This document shows positions 10,940-24,783 of a stretch of DNA of 64,000 bases, piece by piece. Position 1 is the first letter of the stretch; each line of letters begins with the position of its first letter. Made by a program: the position numbers and the translations under genes. The DNA comes from Collimonas sp. OK242 (lineage in GTDB: Bacteria > Pseudomonadota > Gammaproteobacteria > Burkholderiales > Burkholderiaceae_D). Under the pieces are notes generated by a model. The model saw only the letters and a list, made by a program, of their open reading frames with translations. It was not told where the DNA came from and made no database searches. The stretch covers positions 1 to 64,000 of the forward strand of contig NZ_FNOR01000013.1 in NCBI RefSeq assembly GCF_900107095.1. The letters run 5' to 3'.

Positions 10940-13900
10940 TCAAGCTGCAATCGATCGCCCCAACTCCCCCTTCGGTTCAGCTGCAGGGTGATTGAACTGA
11001 TTGAGCAACTCGGCTTCCTTGGCGCGTGCAGCAGCCAGATGCCGTTCCTTGACATGGCCATAGCCGCGGATTTCCTCAGGGAGGCTGGCGATTGCCACTG
11101 CAGCGGCCAGATTATCGGCAGTCAATTGCGATAACAAAGAAGCGATGGTTTCCTTGTAATGCACAATCAGCCCGCGTTCTTCCTTGCGCTCGGCGGTATG
11201 ACCGAAAATATCCAAGGCGCTGCCGCGCAGGAATTTCAGTTTCGCCAGCAGACCAAAAGCACGCATCATCCAAGGACCGAATTCCTGCTTGATCAGATGG
11301 CCGTGCGCATCGTGCTTGGCAAGCAGCGGTGGCGCCAGATGGAATTTAAGCTTGTAGTCGCCTTCAAACATACCCGCAATCTTGGCCTTGAAAGCACCGT
11401 CGGTATATAAGCGCGCGACTTCGTACTCATCCTTGTAAGCCATCAGCTTGAACAGATAGGTAGCGACCGCCATGCTCAGCCGATGCGCTGTGCGTCCGCT
11501 TTCTGCATGAGGCAATTGCGCTTCGGCTGCCTGCACCTGTTCGACAAAGGTGCGATATTGCTCCGCATATGCGGCATCCTGATAAGACGTCAGGACCGCG
11601 ACGCGGCGCTTGATCAACACGTCCAGATCAGGTGCGCGTTTGAACTCGATCACCTGCGCCGGCGTATCGCTGAGGCGGGTACGTTTTTCCAGTCCAGCCA
11701 AATCGCAAGCAGCCGTGCGGCCCCAGACAAAAGCCTGTTTGTTGAAGGCGACCTGCAAGCCATTCAGTTCGATCGCCCGCATCAGCGATGCTTCCTGCAA
11801 CGGCACCCAGCCCTTTTGCCAGGCGTAACCGAGCATGAACATATTGGTTGCGATGGCGTCGCCCATCAAGGCGGTAGCGATACGGCCGGCATCGATGAAT
11901 TCCACACGATCGCTGCCGCAGGCTGCGCGTATATCGTGCTCAGCTGCTGCATCGGGGGACTGCCAATCCGGGTTCTTGATGAAAGCGGCAGTTGGCGTGC
12001 GGGTTGAATTGATCGCTGCATAGGTACGTCCTTCGCCCATGCGCGACAAGGCATCGCGGTTGGCGCTGACGATGGCGTCGCAGCCGATTACCAGATCCGC
12101 ATCGCCGGTGCCGACACGGGTCGAATAGATATCGTCGGGATGATCGGCCAGCCGCACATGCGACATTACTGGGCCGCCCTTTTGCGCCAGGCCGCTCATG
12201 TCCAGCACCGAACAGCCTTTGCCTTCGACATGGGCCGCCATCGCCAGGATCTGGCCGATAGTCACCACGCCGGTGCCGCCGATACCGGTGACCAGGATGC
12301 CGAACGGTTTTATCGTATTCGGCAAGACCGGCGGCGGCAAGCTGGCAGTCGACGCGGCGGCCGGCGTTGCCGTTACTTTCGCCGGCTTCTTCAAATTACC
12401 GCCTTCGACCGTGACGAAACTCGGGCAAAAGCCGGTCACGCAAGAAAAATCCTTGTTGCATGAGGATTGATTGATCTGCCGTTTGCGGCCGAATTCGGTT
12501 TCCAGCGGTTCCACCGACAGGCAATTCGATTGCACGCTGCAATCGCCGCAACCTTCGCACACCGCTTCGTTGATCACGGCGCGTTTGGCCGGGTCCGGAT
12601 ATTCATTGCGTTTCCGGCGGCGGCGTTTTTCCGACGCGCAGGTCTGGTCGTAGATCATCGCGGAAGTACCGACCATCTCACGCAATTCGCGCTGCACGGC
12701 ATCCAGTTCGCTGCGATGGCGGATCGTTACGCCAGGAGCCCAGTTGGTGTCGGCGGCGTATTTGTCCGGCTCGTCAGTCACCACAATAATCGGCGTCACG
12801 CCTTCGGCGGCAATCTGGCGAGAAATCATGGCAGGGTCCAGCGGGCCATCGAAGGCCTGGCCGCCGGTCATGGCCACCGCATCGTTAAACAGGATCTTGT
12901 AGGTGATGTTCACCTTGGCCGCGACCGAGGCGCGAATCGCCAGCAGGCCGGAATGGAAATAAGTACCGTCGCCCAGGTTGGCAAACACGTGCTTTTCCGA
13001 AGTGAACGGCGCCTGGCCGACCCAGGTCACGCCTTCGCCGCCCATATGGGTAAACGTCGACGATTCCCGATCCATCCACAACACCATGTAATGGCAGCCG
13101 ATGCCTGCCAGGCCACGGCTGCCGTCCGGCAGCTTGGTCGAGGTATTGTGCGGGCAGCCCGAGCAGAAATGCGGAACGCGATCTTTGTTTGGATCGGGCT
13201 TGCTGCTGATATTCAGCAACGCTTCCTTGGCTTCCAGATAGGCTACGCGTTGCTGCACGCGTTGCGCCACCGGATGGCCGGCAAAATATTTTGAAATGCG
13301 GGTCGCAATCGCTCTGGCGATCTGCGCCGGATTCAATTCATAGGTAGCCGGCAACAGCCAGTCGCCATGGCCTTCACCGCTGCGGTTGCTCCACTCGCCG
13401 GTATCGTCGAACTTGCCGACCACGCGTGGGCGCACATCGTCGCGCCAGTTATACAGCTCTTCCTTGACCTGGTATTCCAGGATCTGGCGCTTTTCTTCGA
13501 CCACCAGGATTTCTTCCAGGCCCTGGGCAAACTCGCGCACGCCTTCCGCTTCCAGCGGCCAGGTCATGCCGATCTTGTACAGGCGAATGCCGATGTCGCG
13601 CGCCACGGTTTCATCGATGCCCAGATCGGCCAGGGCCTGGCGCGTATCCAGATACGATTTGCCGGCGGTGATGATGCCGATCTTGGCGCGCGGGCTGTCC
13701 CAGATGATCTGGTTCAGCTTGTTCACGCGCGCATAGGCCAGCGCCGCGTACCATTTGTAATTGTTCATCCGCGCTTCCTGGCCCAGCACGGTGTCGGGCA
13801 AGCGGATGTTCAAACCATGGCCATCCGGCGGCAGTTCGAAATCGGTCGGCAAGACGATCTTGACGCGGTCCGGATCGAGATCGACCGCGGCGCCGGATTC

Positions 13901-14575
13901 AACCAGGTCGGTGACGCATTTCATCGATACCCATAGACCGGTATAGCGGCTCATGGCCCAGCCATGCAAGCCGTAATCGAGATATTCCTGTACCGAGGAC
14001 GGATACAGCACCGGGATGCCGCAGGCTTTCAGGATATGTTCGCTTTGATGGGCGGTAGTCGACGATTTGGCCGCATGATCGTCGCCGGCCAGCACCAGTA
14101 CGCCGCCATGCTTGGACGTACCGGCCATGTTGGCGTGCTTGAAGACGTCGCCGCAACGGTCGACGCCGGGGCCTTTGCCGTACCACATGCCGAATACGCC
14201 GTCGTATTGGGCGCCCGGGAACAGGTTCACCTGCTGCGTACCCCACACACTGGTGGCGGCCAGGTCTTCGTTCATGCCGGGGTGGAACTTGACGTGATGC
14301 GCGTCCAGATATTTTTTTGCCTTGGCGGCCGTCATATCGACGCTGCCAAGCGGTGAGCCGCGATAACCGGTAACGAAACCGGCGGTATTCAAACCTGCCA
14401 GGGCATCGCGTTGCCGTTGCAACATCGGCAAGCGAATCATGGCCTGTGTGCCCGTCATGAAAGCACGGCCACGCTCCAGCGTATATTTGTCATCCAGGGA
14501 AATGCCATCAGCTTCAGACGCTTGCGCCGATTCTGAGGGCAGCAAGGCTTGCGCCGATTTGAGTGGTGCGTTCAT
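10940..14575 (-). CDS. Indolepyruvate:ferredoxin oxidoreductase, fused alpha/beta form
   Basis: 1211 aa. This oxidoreductase family decarboxylates aryl- (or branched-chain) 2-oxo acids to acyl-CoA with thiamine diphosphate and iron-sulfur centres. The N-terminal half is the IorA-like thiamine-binding part (FANLGDGTYFHSGLLA region); a ferredoxin-like cysteine cluster CEGCGDC lies near the middle; the C-terminal half is the IorB-like gamma part (GIGGTGVVTIGQILA). Such single-chain forms are typical of proteobacteria. With phhA upstream and an Lrp-type regulator next to that, aromatic amino acid degradation is the likely role. Confidence 0.9.
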   Translation of the reverse strand: MNAPLKSAQALLPSESAQASEADGISLDDKYTLERGRAFMTGTQAMIRLPMLQRQRDALAGLNTAGFVTGYRGSPLGSVDMTAAKAKKYLDAHHVKFHPGMNEDLAATSVWGTQQVNLFPGAQYDGVFGMWYGKGPGVDRCGDVFKHANMAGTSKHGGVLVLAGDDHAAKSSTTAHQSEHILKACGIPVLYPSSVQEYLDYGLHGWAMSRYTGLWVSMKCVTDLVESGAAVDLDPDRVKIVLPTDFELPPDGHGLNIRLPDTVLGQEARMNNYKWYAALAYARVNKLNQIIWDSPRAKIGIITAGKSYLDTRQALADLGIDETVARDIGIRLYKIGMTWPLEAEGVREFAQGLEEILVVEEKRQILEYQVKEELYNWRDDVRPRVVGKFDDTGEWSNRSGEGHGDWLLPATYELNPAQIARAIATRISKYFAGHPVAQRVQQRVAYLEAKEALLNISSKPDPNKDRVPHFCSGCPHNTSTKLPDGSRGLAGIGCHYMVLWMDRESSTFTHMGGEGVTWVGQAPFTSEKHVFANLGDGTYFHSGLLAIRASVAAKVNITYKILFNDAVAMTGGQAFDGPLDPAMISRQIAAEGVTPIIVVTDEPDKYAADTNWAPGVTIRHRSELDAVQRELREMVGTSAMIYDQTCASEKRRRRKRNEYPDPAKRAVINEAVCEGCGDCSVQSNCLSVEPLETEFGRKRQINQSSCNKDFSCVTGFCPSFVTVEGGNLKKPAKVTATPAAASTASLPPPVLPNTIKPFGILVTGIGGTGVVTIGQILAMAAHVEGKGCSVLDMSGLAQKGGPVMSHVRLADHPDDIYSTRVGTGDADLVIGCDAIVSANRDALSRMGEGRTYAAINSTRTPTAAFIKNPDWQSPDAAAEHDIRAACGSDRVEFIDAGRIATALMGDAIATNMFMLGYAWQKGWVPLQEASLMRAIELNGLQVAFNKQAFVWGRTAACDLAGLEKRTRLSDTPAQVIEFKRAPDLDVLIKRRVAVLTSYQDAAYAEQYRTFVEQVQAAEAQLPHAESGRTAHRLSMAVATYLFKLMAYKDEYEVARLYTDGAFKAKIAGMFEGDYKLKFHLAPPLLAKHDAHGHLIKQEFGPWMMRAFGLLAKLKFLRGSALDIFGHTAERKEERGLIVHYKETIASLLSQLTADNLAAAVAIASLPEEIRGYGHVKERHLAAARAKEAELLNQFNHPAAEPKGELGRSIAA

Positions 14576-14949
14576 TCAGTCTCCGTGCCAAAAATTATGT
14601 TTTTGCTTGCACTGCGTGGAGGTTATCCTACGCGGTAAAACGTCTTTGCCTTTTGGGCAAATCGTCCTGTTTTTTTACTACTATCCGTCGCGACGACAGC
14701 AGCGCCACATTATCACATGCGGGTAGCTGACTCAATGCACGCCGCAGCAATCGGCCGCGGCGTAGCGGACGTAACAACTGTAACAACTGGTAAATCGAAT
14801 AGGAATGGGAATCAACTAGGCGTGTAATGGCAACTTGTCTGATGTGGCTGAATACCTCCCCTGGACCAGCCATGTCGGGCATTCCTCCCTCTAGTGTTCC
14901 CATTATCACTAGTTTGCGGATTCTGCTCTCCCCGGCAGAATCCGCTTTT
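14576..14949. other. 374-base intergenic region: IOR promoter and candidate sRNA
   Basis: This stretch separates the IOR start from the phhA stop. It must contain the minus-strand IOR promoter unless IOR is read from phhA. It also has a direct repeat GTAACAACTG/GTAACAACTG-like (14771-14789), a small hairpin TTTGCC/GGCAAA near 14645-14660, and the plus-strand RNA candidate described separately. A minus-strand reading frame (14628-14909) is open, but its product resembles nothing known. Confidence 0.5.
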
Positions 14950-14955
14950 TTATTT
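14800..14955 (+). ncRNA. Candidate small RNA with anti-Shine-Dalgarno loops
   Basis: Read on the plus strand this segment folds into an orderly RNA. An outer helix pairs AATGGGAA+ACTAG (14804-14819) with CTAGT+TTCCCATT (14891-14904). Inside it, a 15-bp hairpin pairs 14836-14850 with 14867-14881 (two or more G-U pairs), exposing a loop containing ACCTCCCC. TTCCTCCCT (14882-14890) is left single-stranded. A terminator hairpin with loop CTCTCCCC and a T tract follows. Three exposed C-rich elements complementary to ribosome-binding sites are typical of regulatory sRNAs that block translation. No clear promoter is seen; TTGGGC-N17-TACTAC at 14653-14681 is possible. Confidence 0.5.
14916..14955 (+). 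terminator. Intrinsic terminator on the plus strand, antisense to the phhA 3' end
   Basis: GCGGATTCTG (14916-14925) pairs perfectly with CAGAATCCGC (14936-14945) around a 10-base loop, followed by TTTTTTATTT. The T tract is on the plus strand only, overlapping the phhA stop codon from the opposite side. No plus-strand protein gene lies upstream, which is why an sRNA is proposed. Confidence 0.8.
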
Positions 14956-15858
14956 CAGCGGCAAGTTTGTTTCACCCGGCAGCAGGGTATTCGCCGGCAA
15001 CGGTTCCAGCGCTTTCAAGCGTTGATATATCGGCGTGAAATCCGGTGCGGTGTCATTGAACAACTGCTGAAAATCGTTAATCACGAAGTAAGTTTCCTGG
15101 TAAGAATCGATTTTGTACAAGGTGCGCATCACGCGTTCGACATCGAACGGCAGCCGCAGCGACGTCGGACTGGTCAGGCAATGTTCGATTTCACCACCGG
15201 AAGACAAAATCCCGGCGCCATATACGCGCAAGCCTTGCGGGCTCTGGATCAAGCCAAATTCAACCGTGTACCAATACAAACGGGCCAACATACCCAGGCC
15301 ATCCAGTTTCATCGCCTTTAAGCCGCCCTTGCCGTAGTCCTGCAAATGGTCGGCAAAAATCGGGTTGAACAACAGCGGAACGTGACCGAAGAAATCATGG
15401 AACACATCGGGTTCGACGATGTAGTCGAACTCTTCCGGATCGCGCAACCAGACGGTGACCGGGAAGCGGCGGTTTGCCAGATGTTCGAAGAAAATATGAT
15501 CCGGCACCAGGCCGGGCACCGCCACCAGCGTCCAGCCGGTCGCCTTGGACAGCAAGGCCGAACACTCCTCGAAGCGAGGAATGCCATCGCCGATATTCAG
15601 CATTTCCAGGCTTTCGATGAACACGTCGCAAGCCCGCCCCGGGATCAGCTTGGCTTGCCGTTGATACAGGCGGCGCCACAAGGCGTGCTGCTCCGGCGTA
15701 TAAGCATCCCAGTCTTGCTTGACCACGTATTGGGCGTCGATCTTGCTGTAGTCGCCACGCAATACGGCACCGTCCGATTTCTCGGCGACGGCGGCAAAAA
15801 AATCGGCGGTGTTCGAATCGGCGGTGTTCAAGCTTGCTTCCATCACTTTTGCATTCAT
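14950..15858 (-). CDS. phhA: Phenylalanine 4-monooxygenase PhhA
   Basis: 302 aa. PhhA uses tetrahydrobiopterin, oxygen and iron to hydroxylate phenylalanine to tyrosine. The iron ligands are H154 and H159 (HDFFGH) and E200 (WYTVEFG). The bacterial enzyme is normally about 260-300 aa, so this is full length with a somewhat long N-terminus. The pterin recycling gene phhB is not adjacent. It is divergent from an Lrp-type gene, the likely regulator, and upstream of the IOR fusion on the same strand. Confidence 0.95.
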   Translation of the reverse strand: MNAKVMEASLNTADSNTADFFAAVAEKSDGAVLRGDYSKIDAQYVVKQDWDAYTPEQHALWRRLYQRQAKLIPGRACDVFIESLEMLNIGDGIPRFEECSALLSKATGWTLVAVPGLVPDHIFFEHLANRRFPVTVWLRDPEEFDYIVEPDVFHDFFGHVPLLFNPIFADHLQDYGKGGLKAMKLDGLGMLARLYWYTVEFGLIQSPQGLRVYGAGILSSGGEIEHCLTSPTSLRLPFDVERVMRTLYKIDSYQETYFVINDFQQLFNDTAPDFTPIYQRLKALEPLPANTLLPGETNLPLK

Positions 15859-16001: not shown

Positions 16002-16520
16002 ATGCCAAAGATTGCAATGGATGCAACAGATCGTAAAATTCTGGCGATCTTGCAGGAGGATGGCCGCCTCAGCAATCAGGAAGTGGCGGAAAGAGTCAAC
16101 CTGTCGCCGTCGCCGTGCCTGCGCCGTATCAAGCACCTGGAACAGGCTGGCGTGATCCGGCAATACGTGGCGCTGCTGGAGCCGGACAAAATCGGACTGG
16201 GCCTGCTGGCTTACATCAATGTGCGCCTGGAAAAACATAGCGATCCGCAGTACCTGAGCGGCACCAAGACGGCGGCACAACACCCAGCCCTGTCGCCGCG
16301 CGCCTCATTTTCGGCGGCGGTCGAACAATGGCAGGAGGTAGTCGCCTGCTACGCGATGACCGGTGAGATGGATTTTCTGCTGCGGGTGCATGTGGAAGAC
16401 ATGGCGCATTTTTCGCGCTTCATGATGGAGACCTTGCTGCGCCATCCGGCGGTGCTGGATGTCAAATCAAGTTTTGCTCTGCAACGGATTAAAGATACGA
16501 CGGCGCTGCCTTTGCTTTAG
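16002..16520 (+). CDS. Lrp/AsnC family transcriptional regulator
   Basis: 172 aa. An N-terminal winged helix-turn-helix (ATDRKILAILQEDGRLSNQEVAERVNLSPSPCLRRIKHLE) is followed by an RAM-type ligand-binding domain. These regulators sense amino acids and often control the neighbouring catabolic gene. Divergent transcription from phhA and an inverted repeat between them suggest that it controls phenylalanine use. The segment at about residues 86-106 (SGTKTAAQHPALSPRASFSAA) is longer than in typical family members. Confidence 0.88.
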   Translation: MPKIAMDATDRKILAILQEDGRLSNQEVAERVNLSPSPCLRRIKHLEQAGVIRQYVALLEPDKIGLGLLAYINVRLEKHSDPQYLSGTKTAAQHPALSPRASFSAAVEQWQEVVACYAMTGEMDFLLRVHVEDMAHFSRFMMETLLRHPAVLDVKSSFALQRIKDTTALPLL

Positions 16521-24652: not shown

Positions 24653-24683
24653 CACGCCCTCCTTTCGTTAGAAAAAAAGTAAC

Positions 24684-24748
24684 GTGAGCGCAGTTGCAAA
24701 ATGACTGTACCAAGCCTGGCAGACCATGTCTGTCGCAACGCTCCTTGG
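24684..24748 (-). promoter_or_regulatory. S-adenosylhomocysteine (SAH) riboswitch
   Basis: On the minus strand the leader reads CCAAGGAGCGTTGC, a central arm, then CCAGGCTTGG, and further on GCAACTGCGCTCACG. P1 pairs 24744-24748 with 24710-24714. The pseudoknot pairs GAGCG/GCGTTGC (24735-24743) with GCAAC and CGCTC at 24686-24697. This matches the SAH riboswitch consensus known from beta- and gammaproteobacteria, where it sits before ahcY and is an ON switch. The AGGAGG site follows it by about 20 bases. Confidence 0.93.
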
Positions 24749-24783
24749 ATACGAGCCGCTATTTTAAAGCAAAACGGCAGATT

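Follow-up and report, generated by a model that had tools for sequence, protein, structure and literature searches.

Comparative sequence analysis indicates that the plus strand at 14834-14951 of the window, the whole 64,000-nucleotide stretch of the Collimonas sp. OK242 genome analysed here, is a real, conserved small RNA (sRNA) gene. The first-pass annotation had proposed a plus-strand sRNA with exposed segments resembling anti-Shine-Dalgarno sequences at this place, and the conservation of the RNA in three genera supports this proposal. The candidate RNA is located on the plus strand between the divergent IOR gene and the convergent phhA gene (Table 1); the name IOR is that of the first-pass annotation, and only the Pfam domains of its product come from the present analysis. 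We consider it fairly probable that this is a stand-alone sRNA gene of Collimonas, Glaciimonas and most of the sampled Herbaspirillum, which acts in trans and is derived from the transcription unit of an EF-hand protein gene.

Table 1. Features of the sRNA locus and its two neighbours, in coordinates of the window.
Feature	Position	Strand	Remarks
IOR (indolepyruvate ferredoxin oxidoreductase)	10940-14575	-	Divergent neighbour; Pfam POR, DUF6537, TPP_enzyme_C
Probable operator	14771-14794	+	Direct repeats GTAAC (14780-14784) and GTAAA (14790-14794); further GTAAC (14771-14775)
Putative promoter	14800-14828	+	Weak -35 near 14800-14805; 17-nt spacer; -10 TGTAAT (14823-14828)
Small RNA, about 118 nt	about 14834-14951	+	From promoter position, fold and homologues in three genera; inferred start, about +/-3
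Stem-loop 1 (inner hairpin)	14836-14850/14867-14881	+	15 bp; apical loop with CCUCCCC
Linker UUCCUCCCU	14882-14890	+	Predicted unpaired; conserved anti-Shine-Dalgarno-like segment
Hairpin CUAGUG-N10-CACUAG	14891-14912	+	Unchanged in 36 of 36 intact members
Intrinsic terminator	14916-14951	+	12 pairs (14916-14945), then T6; loop with CUCCCC
C-rich segments	ACCTCCCC 14854-14861; TTCCTCCCT 14882-14890; CTCTCCCC 14926-14933	+	Read in the sequence
phhA	14950-15858	-	Convergent neighbour; Pfam Biopterin_H

Fold, promoter and boundaries of the RNA

The results of our folding of positions 14800-14955 showed a z-score of -6.0 for the plus strand, with none of 200 shuffles as low, while the opposite strand reached -3.1, with 2 of 200 shuffles as low; an element on the minus strand was rejected, its fold being weaker and without a T tract. 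The corrected fold is predicted to proceed from stem-loop 1 through an open CCUCCC linker to the CUAGUG/CACUAG hairpin and then to the terminator. Three alignments, called A2, A3 and A4, were used to compare the homologues, and the rows of the window itself (L001, L003 and L032) were dropped from the comparisons. Alignment A2 held 17 of 20 Collimonas and Glaciimonas sequences and left out L002 (identical RNA), L008 and L021 (degenerate). Alignment A3 held 12 hand-chosen sequences, without the Glaciimonas loci L016, L017, L019 and L020, in which the hairpin was misaligned. Alignment A4 was made from 39 chosen sources, these four Glaciimonas loci included, and had 27 distinct rows out of 39. What we call the 36 intact members are the sequences of A4 minus L021, L085 and L141, and many of them are nearly identical.

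Comparison across relatives of the three helices drawn by the first-pass annotation upheld two of them. In stem-loop 1, 97.6% of the cells were paired in the 17 Collimonas and Glaciimonas sequences, six pairs were changed on both sides and none of 500 shuffles scored as high, and the terminator, confirmed with its T tract and present on the plus strand only, covaried in the alignments. The outer helix (14804-14820/14890-14904) did not stand. It belongs to the lowest-energy fold of 14800-14955, yet its 5' arm is unconserved promoter spacer, and it gave no signal of covariation: 73.7% of its cells were paired in the same 17 sequences versus 72.8% after shuffling, 88 of 500 shuffles scored as high, one pair was changed on both sides, and RNAalifold did not predict the helix. 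Its 3' arm pairs instead within the CUAGUG/CACUAG hairpin, where its partner is conserved; this hairpin is invariant in the 12-sequence alignment, so that covariation is silent on it. The first-pass annotation had also placed the start of the RNA near 14800, while the promoter seen in relatives puts it at about 14834. A larger RNA that begins at about 14800 and is closed by the outer helix is therefore, in our estimation, barely credible.

The evidence that the RNA has a promoter of its own is comparative and consists of a conserved operator and a conserved -10 element at constant spacing. The conserved blocks are separated by a segment whose length is constant, but for one insertion in L023, and whose sequence varies; TGTAAT or TTTAAT follows it. 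The pattern GTAAC-N5-GTAAR is conserved at the sRNA loci and at the EF-hand loci of other genera. The motif TGTAACAANNNGTAAR was found once per genome in six of the nine genomes searched, always at the locus adjacent to IOR, while the reversed control matched three times. The direct repeats are probably the site of an activator; they resemble CpxR boxes, whose consensus is GTAAA-N5-GTAAA, and their 10-bp period is that of CpxR/OmpR-type sites. A scan for sigma-70 consensus promoters found no site at the locus, from which we infer that the promoter depends on an activator. Together with this promoter, the locus has the intrinsic terminator and the conserved structure of an sRNA gene. A plus-strand open reading frame (14827-15321) was considered as a possible small-protein gene and rejected: it begins inside the -10 region, crosses the terminator and has its frame broken by one-base length differences among Collimonas (L007 and L013).

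The open linker and its probable action

The first-pass annotation had described three exposed C-rich anti-Shine-Dalgarno segments. All three are present on the plus strand of the window, but only the linker is common to all members of the family. CCUCC is located directly 5' of the CUAGUG hairpin in 36 of the 36 intact members, whereas the C-rich terminator loop is found in 33 of the 36 (it is absent from L020, L090 and L091) and the C-rich motif of the stem-loop 1 loop is absent from the Herbaspirillum copies that were aligned or folded. The conserved core is thus the linker with its hairpin, not three equal anti-Shine-Dalgarno segments. The linker was predicted to be unpaired in most folded representatives but not in all, its unpaired probability being as low as 0.40 in L091 and 0.44 in L141, and CCUCC is the classic complement of the Shine-Dalgarno site; the RNA carries in this linker the open, C-rich motif complementary to Shine-Dalgarno sites that characterizes anti-Shine-Dalgarno RNAs.

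These features suggest a mechanism in which an activator bound to the direct repeats would switch the RNA on, after which the open CCUCC linker would pair in trans with the Shine-Dalgarno regions of several mRNAs and lower their translation, assisted in many species by the C-rich loops. Pairing of CCUCC with Shine-Dalgarno sites in trans is the likely action by analogy with sX13 of Xanthomonas, whose C-rich motifs have been shown to act on G-rich start regions (PMC3771888).

A different action, the titration of an RNA-binding protein or of another sRNA by the CUAGUG hairpin and the C-rich linker, would account for a hairpin that did not change in any of the 36 intact members. In two Collimonas genomes, the complement of the linker extended through CUAG was found in the sRNA gene and nowhere else; there was one other place in G014 and there were three in G207, and the reversed-pattern control gave more matches (9, 10, 3 and 19); because the extended complement matches no other place in the two Collimonas genomes, the invariance of the hairpin stays unexplained by target pairing. 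No partner is known, however, and the linker is a Shine-Dalgarno complement, so that we hold titration to be rather unlikely and prefer Shine-Dalgarno pairing by the linker.

Comparison with known RNAs showed likenesses of design. The RNA sX13 (RF02232; PMC3771888) has three stem-loops and C-rich open segments directed against G-rich translation-start motifs, as the present RNA has, but there is no homology between the two (13.6 bits against a cut-off of 50, E 4.5), and the best-kept C-rich segment of the present RNA is a linker rather than a loop. The Betaproteobacteria toxic small RNA (RF02278) comes from the same bacterial class and also has an open CUCCUCC run, a hairpin and a terminator. 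Its hairpin and terminator are different ones, however, and it did not match the locus either at the gathering score or at E up to 10 (14560-15100). In the same genome RF02278 has nine copies above the cut-off, and the number of matches rises to 22 when E up to 10 is allowed; they lie on contig C26 (121569-128080), where several are clustered, and on other contigs (L072-L079), whereas the present RNA is single-copy. SmelA075 and SmelA099 of the Rhizobiales are multi-hairpin RNAs with repeated anti-Shine-Dalgarno motifs like the present RNA, but they carry the motif CCUCCUCCC in each hairpin loop (PMC3927594), and no sequence match to them was found.

Distribution among relatives and position beside IOR and phhA

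A DNA search found homologues in 35 of the 294 genomes of the family, in three of its 44 genera. The covariance model R1, which represents the 3' half of the sRNA and was built from sRNAs only, matched 46 of the 294 genomes: 15 Collimonas (one of them, G083, with a degenerate copy), 5 Glaciimonas, 20 Herbaspirillum, 1 of genus g37 and 5 of genus g5. Stricter filters were applied in searches spanning more than 40 genomes, and second R1 matches of 28.1 bits (G174) and 18.1 bits (the genome of the window) were set aside. When 399 genomes were drawn evenly from the order, four matches were obtained; one of them, in another family (L035, 28.5 bits), was weak, had neither neighbour and was taken as chance. 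A pattern scan of named genomes gave nine loci, seven of Collimonas and two of Glaciimonas. No homologues were found on plasmids.

Among the 26 Herbaspirillum listed with IOR, 20 have the RNA. In the six others (L144-L149), phhA is 256-348 nt from IOR or from the start of the fetched stretch, and there is no operator. At the two g37 loci (L141 and L085) the RNA has diverged: it is about 133 nt long and its linker is CUCCCU. No EF-hand gene is present there; the operator is intact in one of them and its second half is degenerate in the other. They are possibly an intermediate form.

No Rfam family matched the locus at gathering scores, and a search of 14560-15100 at E up to 10 gave three weak matches, far below gathering. 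Elsewhere in the window, an S-adenosylhomocysteine (SAH) riboswitch is found on the minus strand at 24679-24753 (RF01057, 59.5 bits). A literature search found no publication title on the present RNA. One Herbaspirillum genome (G207) contains the Northern probe of H. seropedicae Hsnc082 letter for letter (probe from PMC7011215), and none of six published H. seropedicae Northern oligonucleotides occurs exactly in the loci compared. The available parts of PMC7011215 and PMC6337395 name no sRNA beside phhA or the indolepyruvate gene; their full sRNA lists are in supplements, where an unnamed entry is possible.

Of 59 loci examined, several genomes being counted twice, 58 have IOR and phhA on either side of the RNA. 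This constancy would suit an RNA that controls phhA by antisense pairing or is a co-regulator with IOR, in connection with the use of aromatic amino acids, a link at which the first-pass annotation had hinted. The overlap that it had called antisense to the phhA 3' end is no more than the T tract meeting the stop codon of phhA (14950-14952), a contact that is not conserved. Moreover, four Herbaspirillum genomes (G026, G082, G207 and G268) have phhA more than 1 kb away from the sRNA; in G207 the gene of a di-haem cytochrome c peroxidase (Pfam CCP_MauG; L026:1586-2617, minus strand) lies between them, and in G026 there is an open reading frame that by eye resembles it. In other genera the operator adjoins an EF-hand gene and keeps this position even at three loci, described below, where it is parted from IOR by a LysR-type gene. 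With phhA displaced and such loci present, the comparison does not lead to antisense control or to a role in aromatic metabolism, and we judge both to be very improbable. A gene of an Lrp/AsnC-type regulator, divergent from phhA, is located at 16002-16520 on the plus strand; it is a likely regulator of phhA and was not tied to the sRNA operator.

The EF-hand gene at the same place in other genera

In genera g3, g17, g5, g24, g26 and g30, the same chromosomal place is occupied by the gene of an EF-hand protein, with a signal peptide as read by eye. The EF-hand domains were found by Pfam in 12 of 14 loci; the two others (L104 and L113), truncated where the stretch ends, were recognized by BLAST only. 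The region upstream of IOR was examined at 48 loci: 14 have the EF-hand gene, 2 (genus g37) the diverged sRNA-like unit and 32 neither within 1.5-2 kb, and the operator pattern was present in 13 of the 14, 1 of the 2 and 0 of the 32, respectively. The fourteenth EF-hand locus (L151), whose promoter was read by eye, has GTTAC-AGCAG-GTAAA by the same reading. At L104, L113 and L162 the operator adjoins the EF-hand gene at a distance of 1.1-1.26 kb from IOR, and the interval contains a LysR-type gene (called by Pfam for L113 and by eye for L104 and L162).

Alignment from the operator to the -10 position is gapless across the EF-hand and the sRNA forms, although no more than 5 of 13 EF-hand loci have at that position a hexamer that differs from TATAAT by two mismatches or fewer. 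In g3 and g17 the EF-hand genes have at their ends CAGTTGCGGATTCC...GGAATCCG followed by a T run, which is nearly the terminator stem of the sRNA, while no matching stem was found in those of g24 (L142, L143, L162 and L163) and g26 (L151). CCTCCTC follows the EF-hand stop codon in L159 and L111. In the five g5 genomes, the R1 matches are within 1.8 kb of IOR, with the EF-hand gene between in G047, G156 and G235, and we read all five as putative 3' ends of EF-hand genes. The RNA module may thus already have been present in the 3' UTR of the EF-hand mRNA.

The RNA gene would accordingly be what was left of the EF-hand transcription unit once the coding sequence had been lost, and such a descent is probable from the sequences compared. 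A tree of IOR clusters the states at the locus (10 changes versus 25.6 when shuffled), but its deep branches are open and neither the direction nor the number of the changes is fixed by it; we take the EF-hand form as the older one because it is spread over more lineages.

The RNA shares its promoter with the EF-hand genes, and its terminator stem with those of some genera, which could also mean that the hairpins and the terminator are a decaying, functionless remnant of a dead EF-hand gene, and the locus is indeed degenerate in one reduced genome (L021). Against this are the compensatory changes in two helices and a linker-hairpin that is invariant across three genera, which leave a functionless remnant little plausibility. 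L021 comes from a Collimonas genome of 1.7 Mb (G083), in which IOR is broken into frames, the matched part of PhhA is only 40% identical, and the terminator of the sRNA is degenerate; the entire locus appears to be decaying there.

For a functional RNA descended from the EF-hand unit, the nearest parallel among sRNAs associated with a secreted protein's transcription unit would be CpxQ, from the cpxP 3' UTR (PMC4817254 and PMC9438474). CpxQ is released by cleavage of an intact mRNA, whereas the present RNA is without a coding sequence and would be a primary transcript. In Collimonas there is no coding sequence between the promoter and the RNA, and the latter does not fall in the class of 3'-UTR-derived sRNAs.

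The family described here adds to the Burkholderiales an sRNA that is absent from Rfam, and the corrected boundaries decide where the RNA is to be probed and mutated. We see about an even chance that a protein-coding gene has turned into a regulatory RNA gene in place, the operator of a secreted and probably calcium-sensing EF-hand protein now driving an anti-Shine-Dalgarno RNA in Collimonas, Glaciimonas, Herbaspirillum and a fourth genus, with the output of the regulator changed from a protein to an RNA. If this is true, relatives with the protein form stand beside relatives with the RNA form under one operator, and it would become possible to test directly how a regulatory RNA is born from an mRNA.
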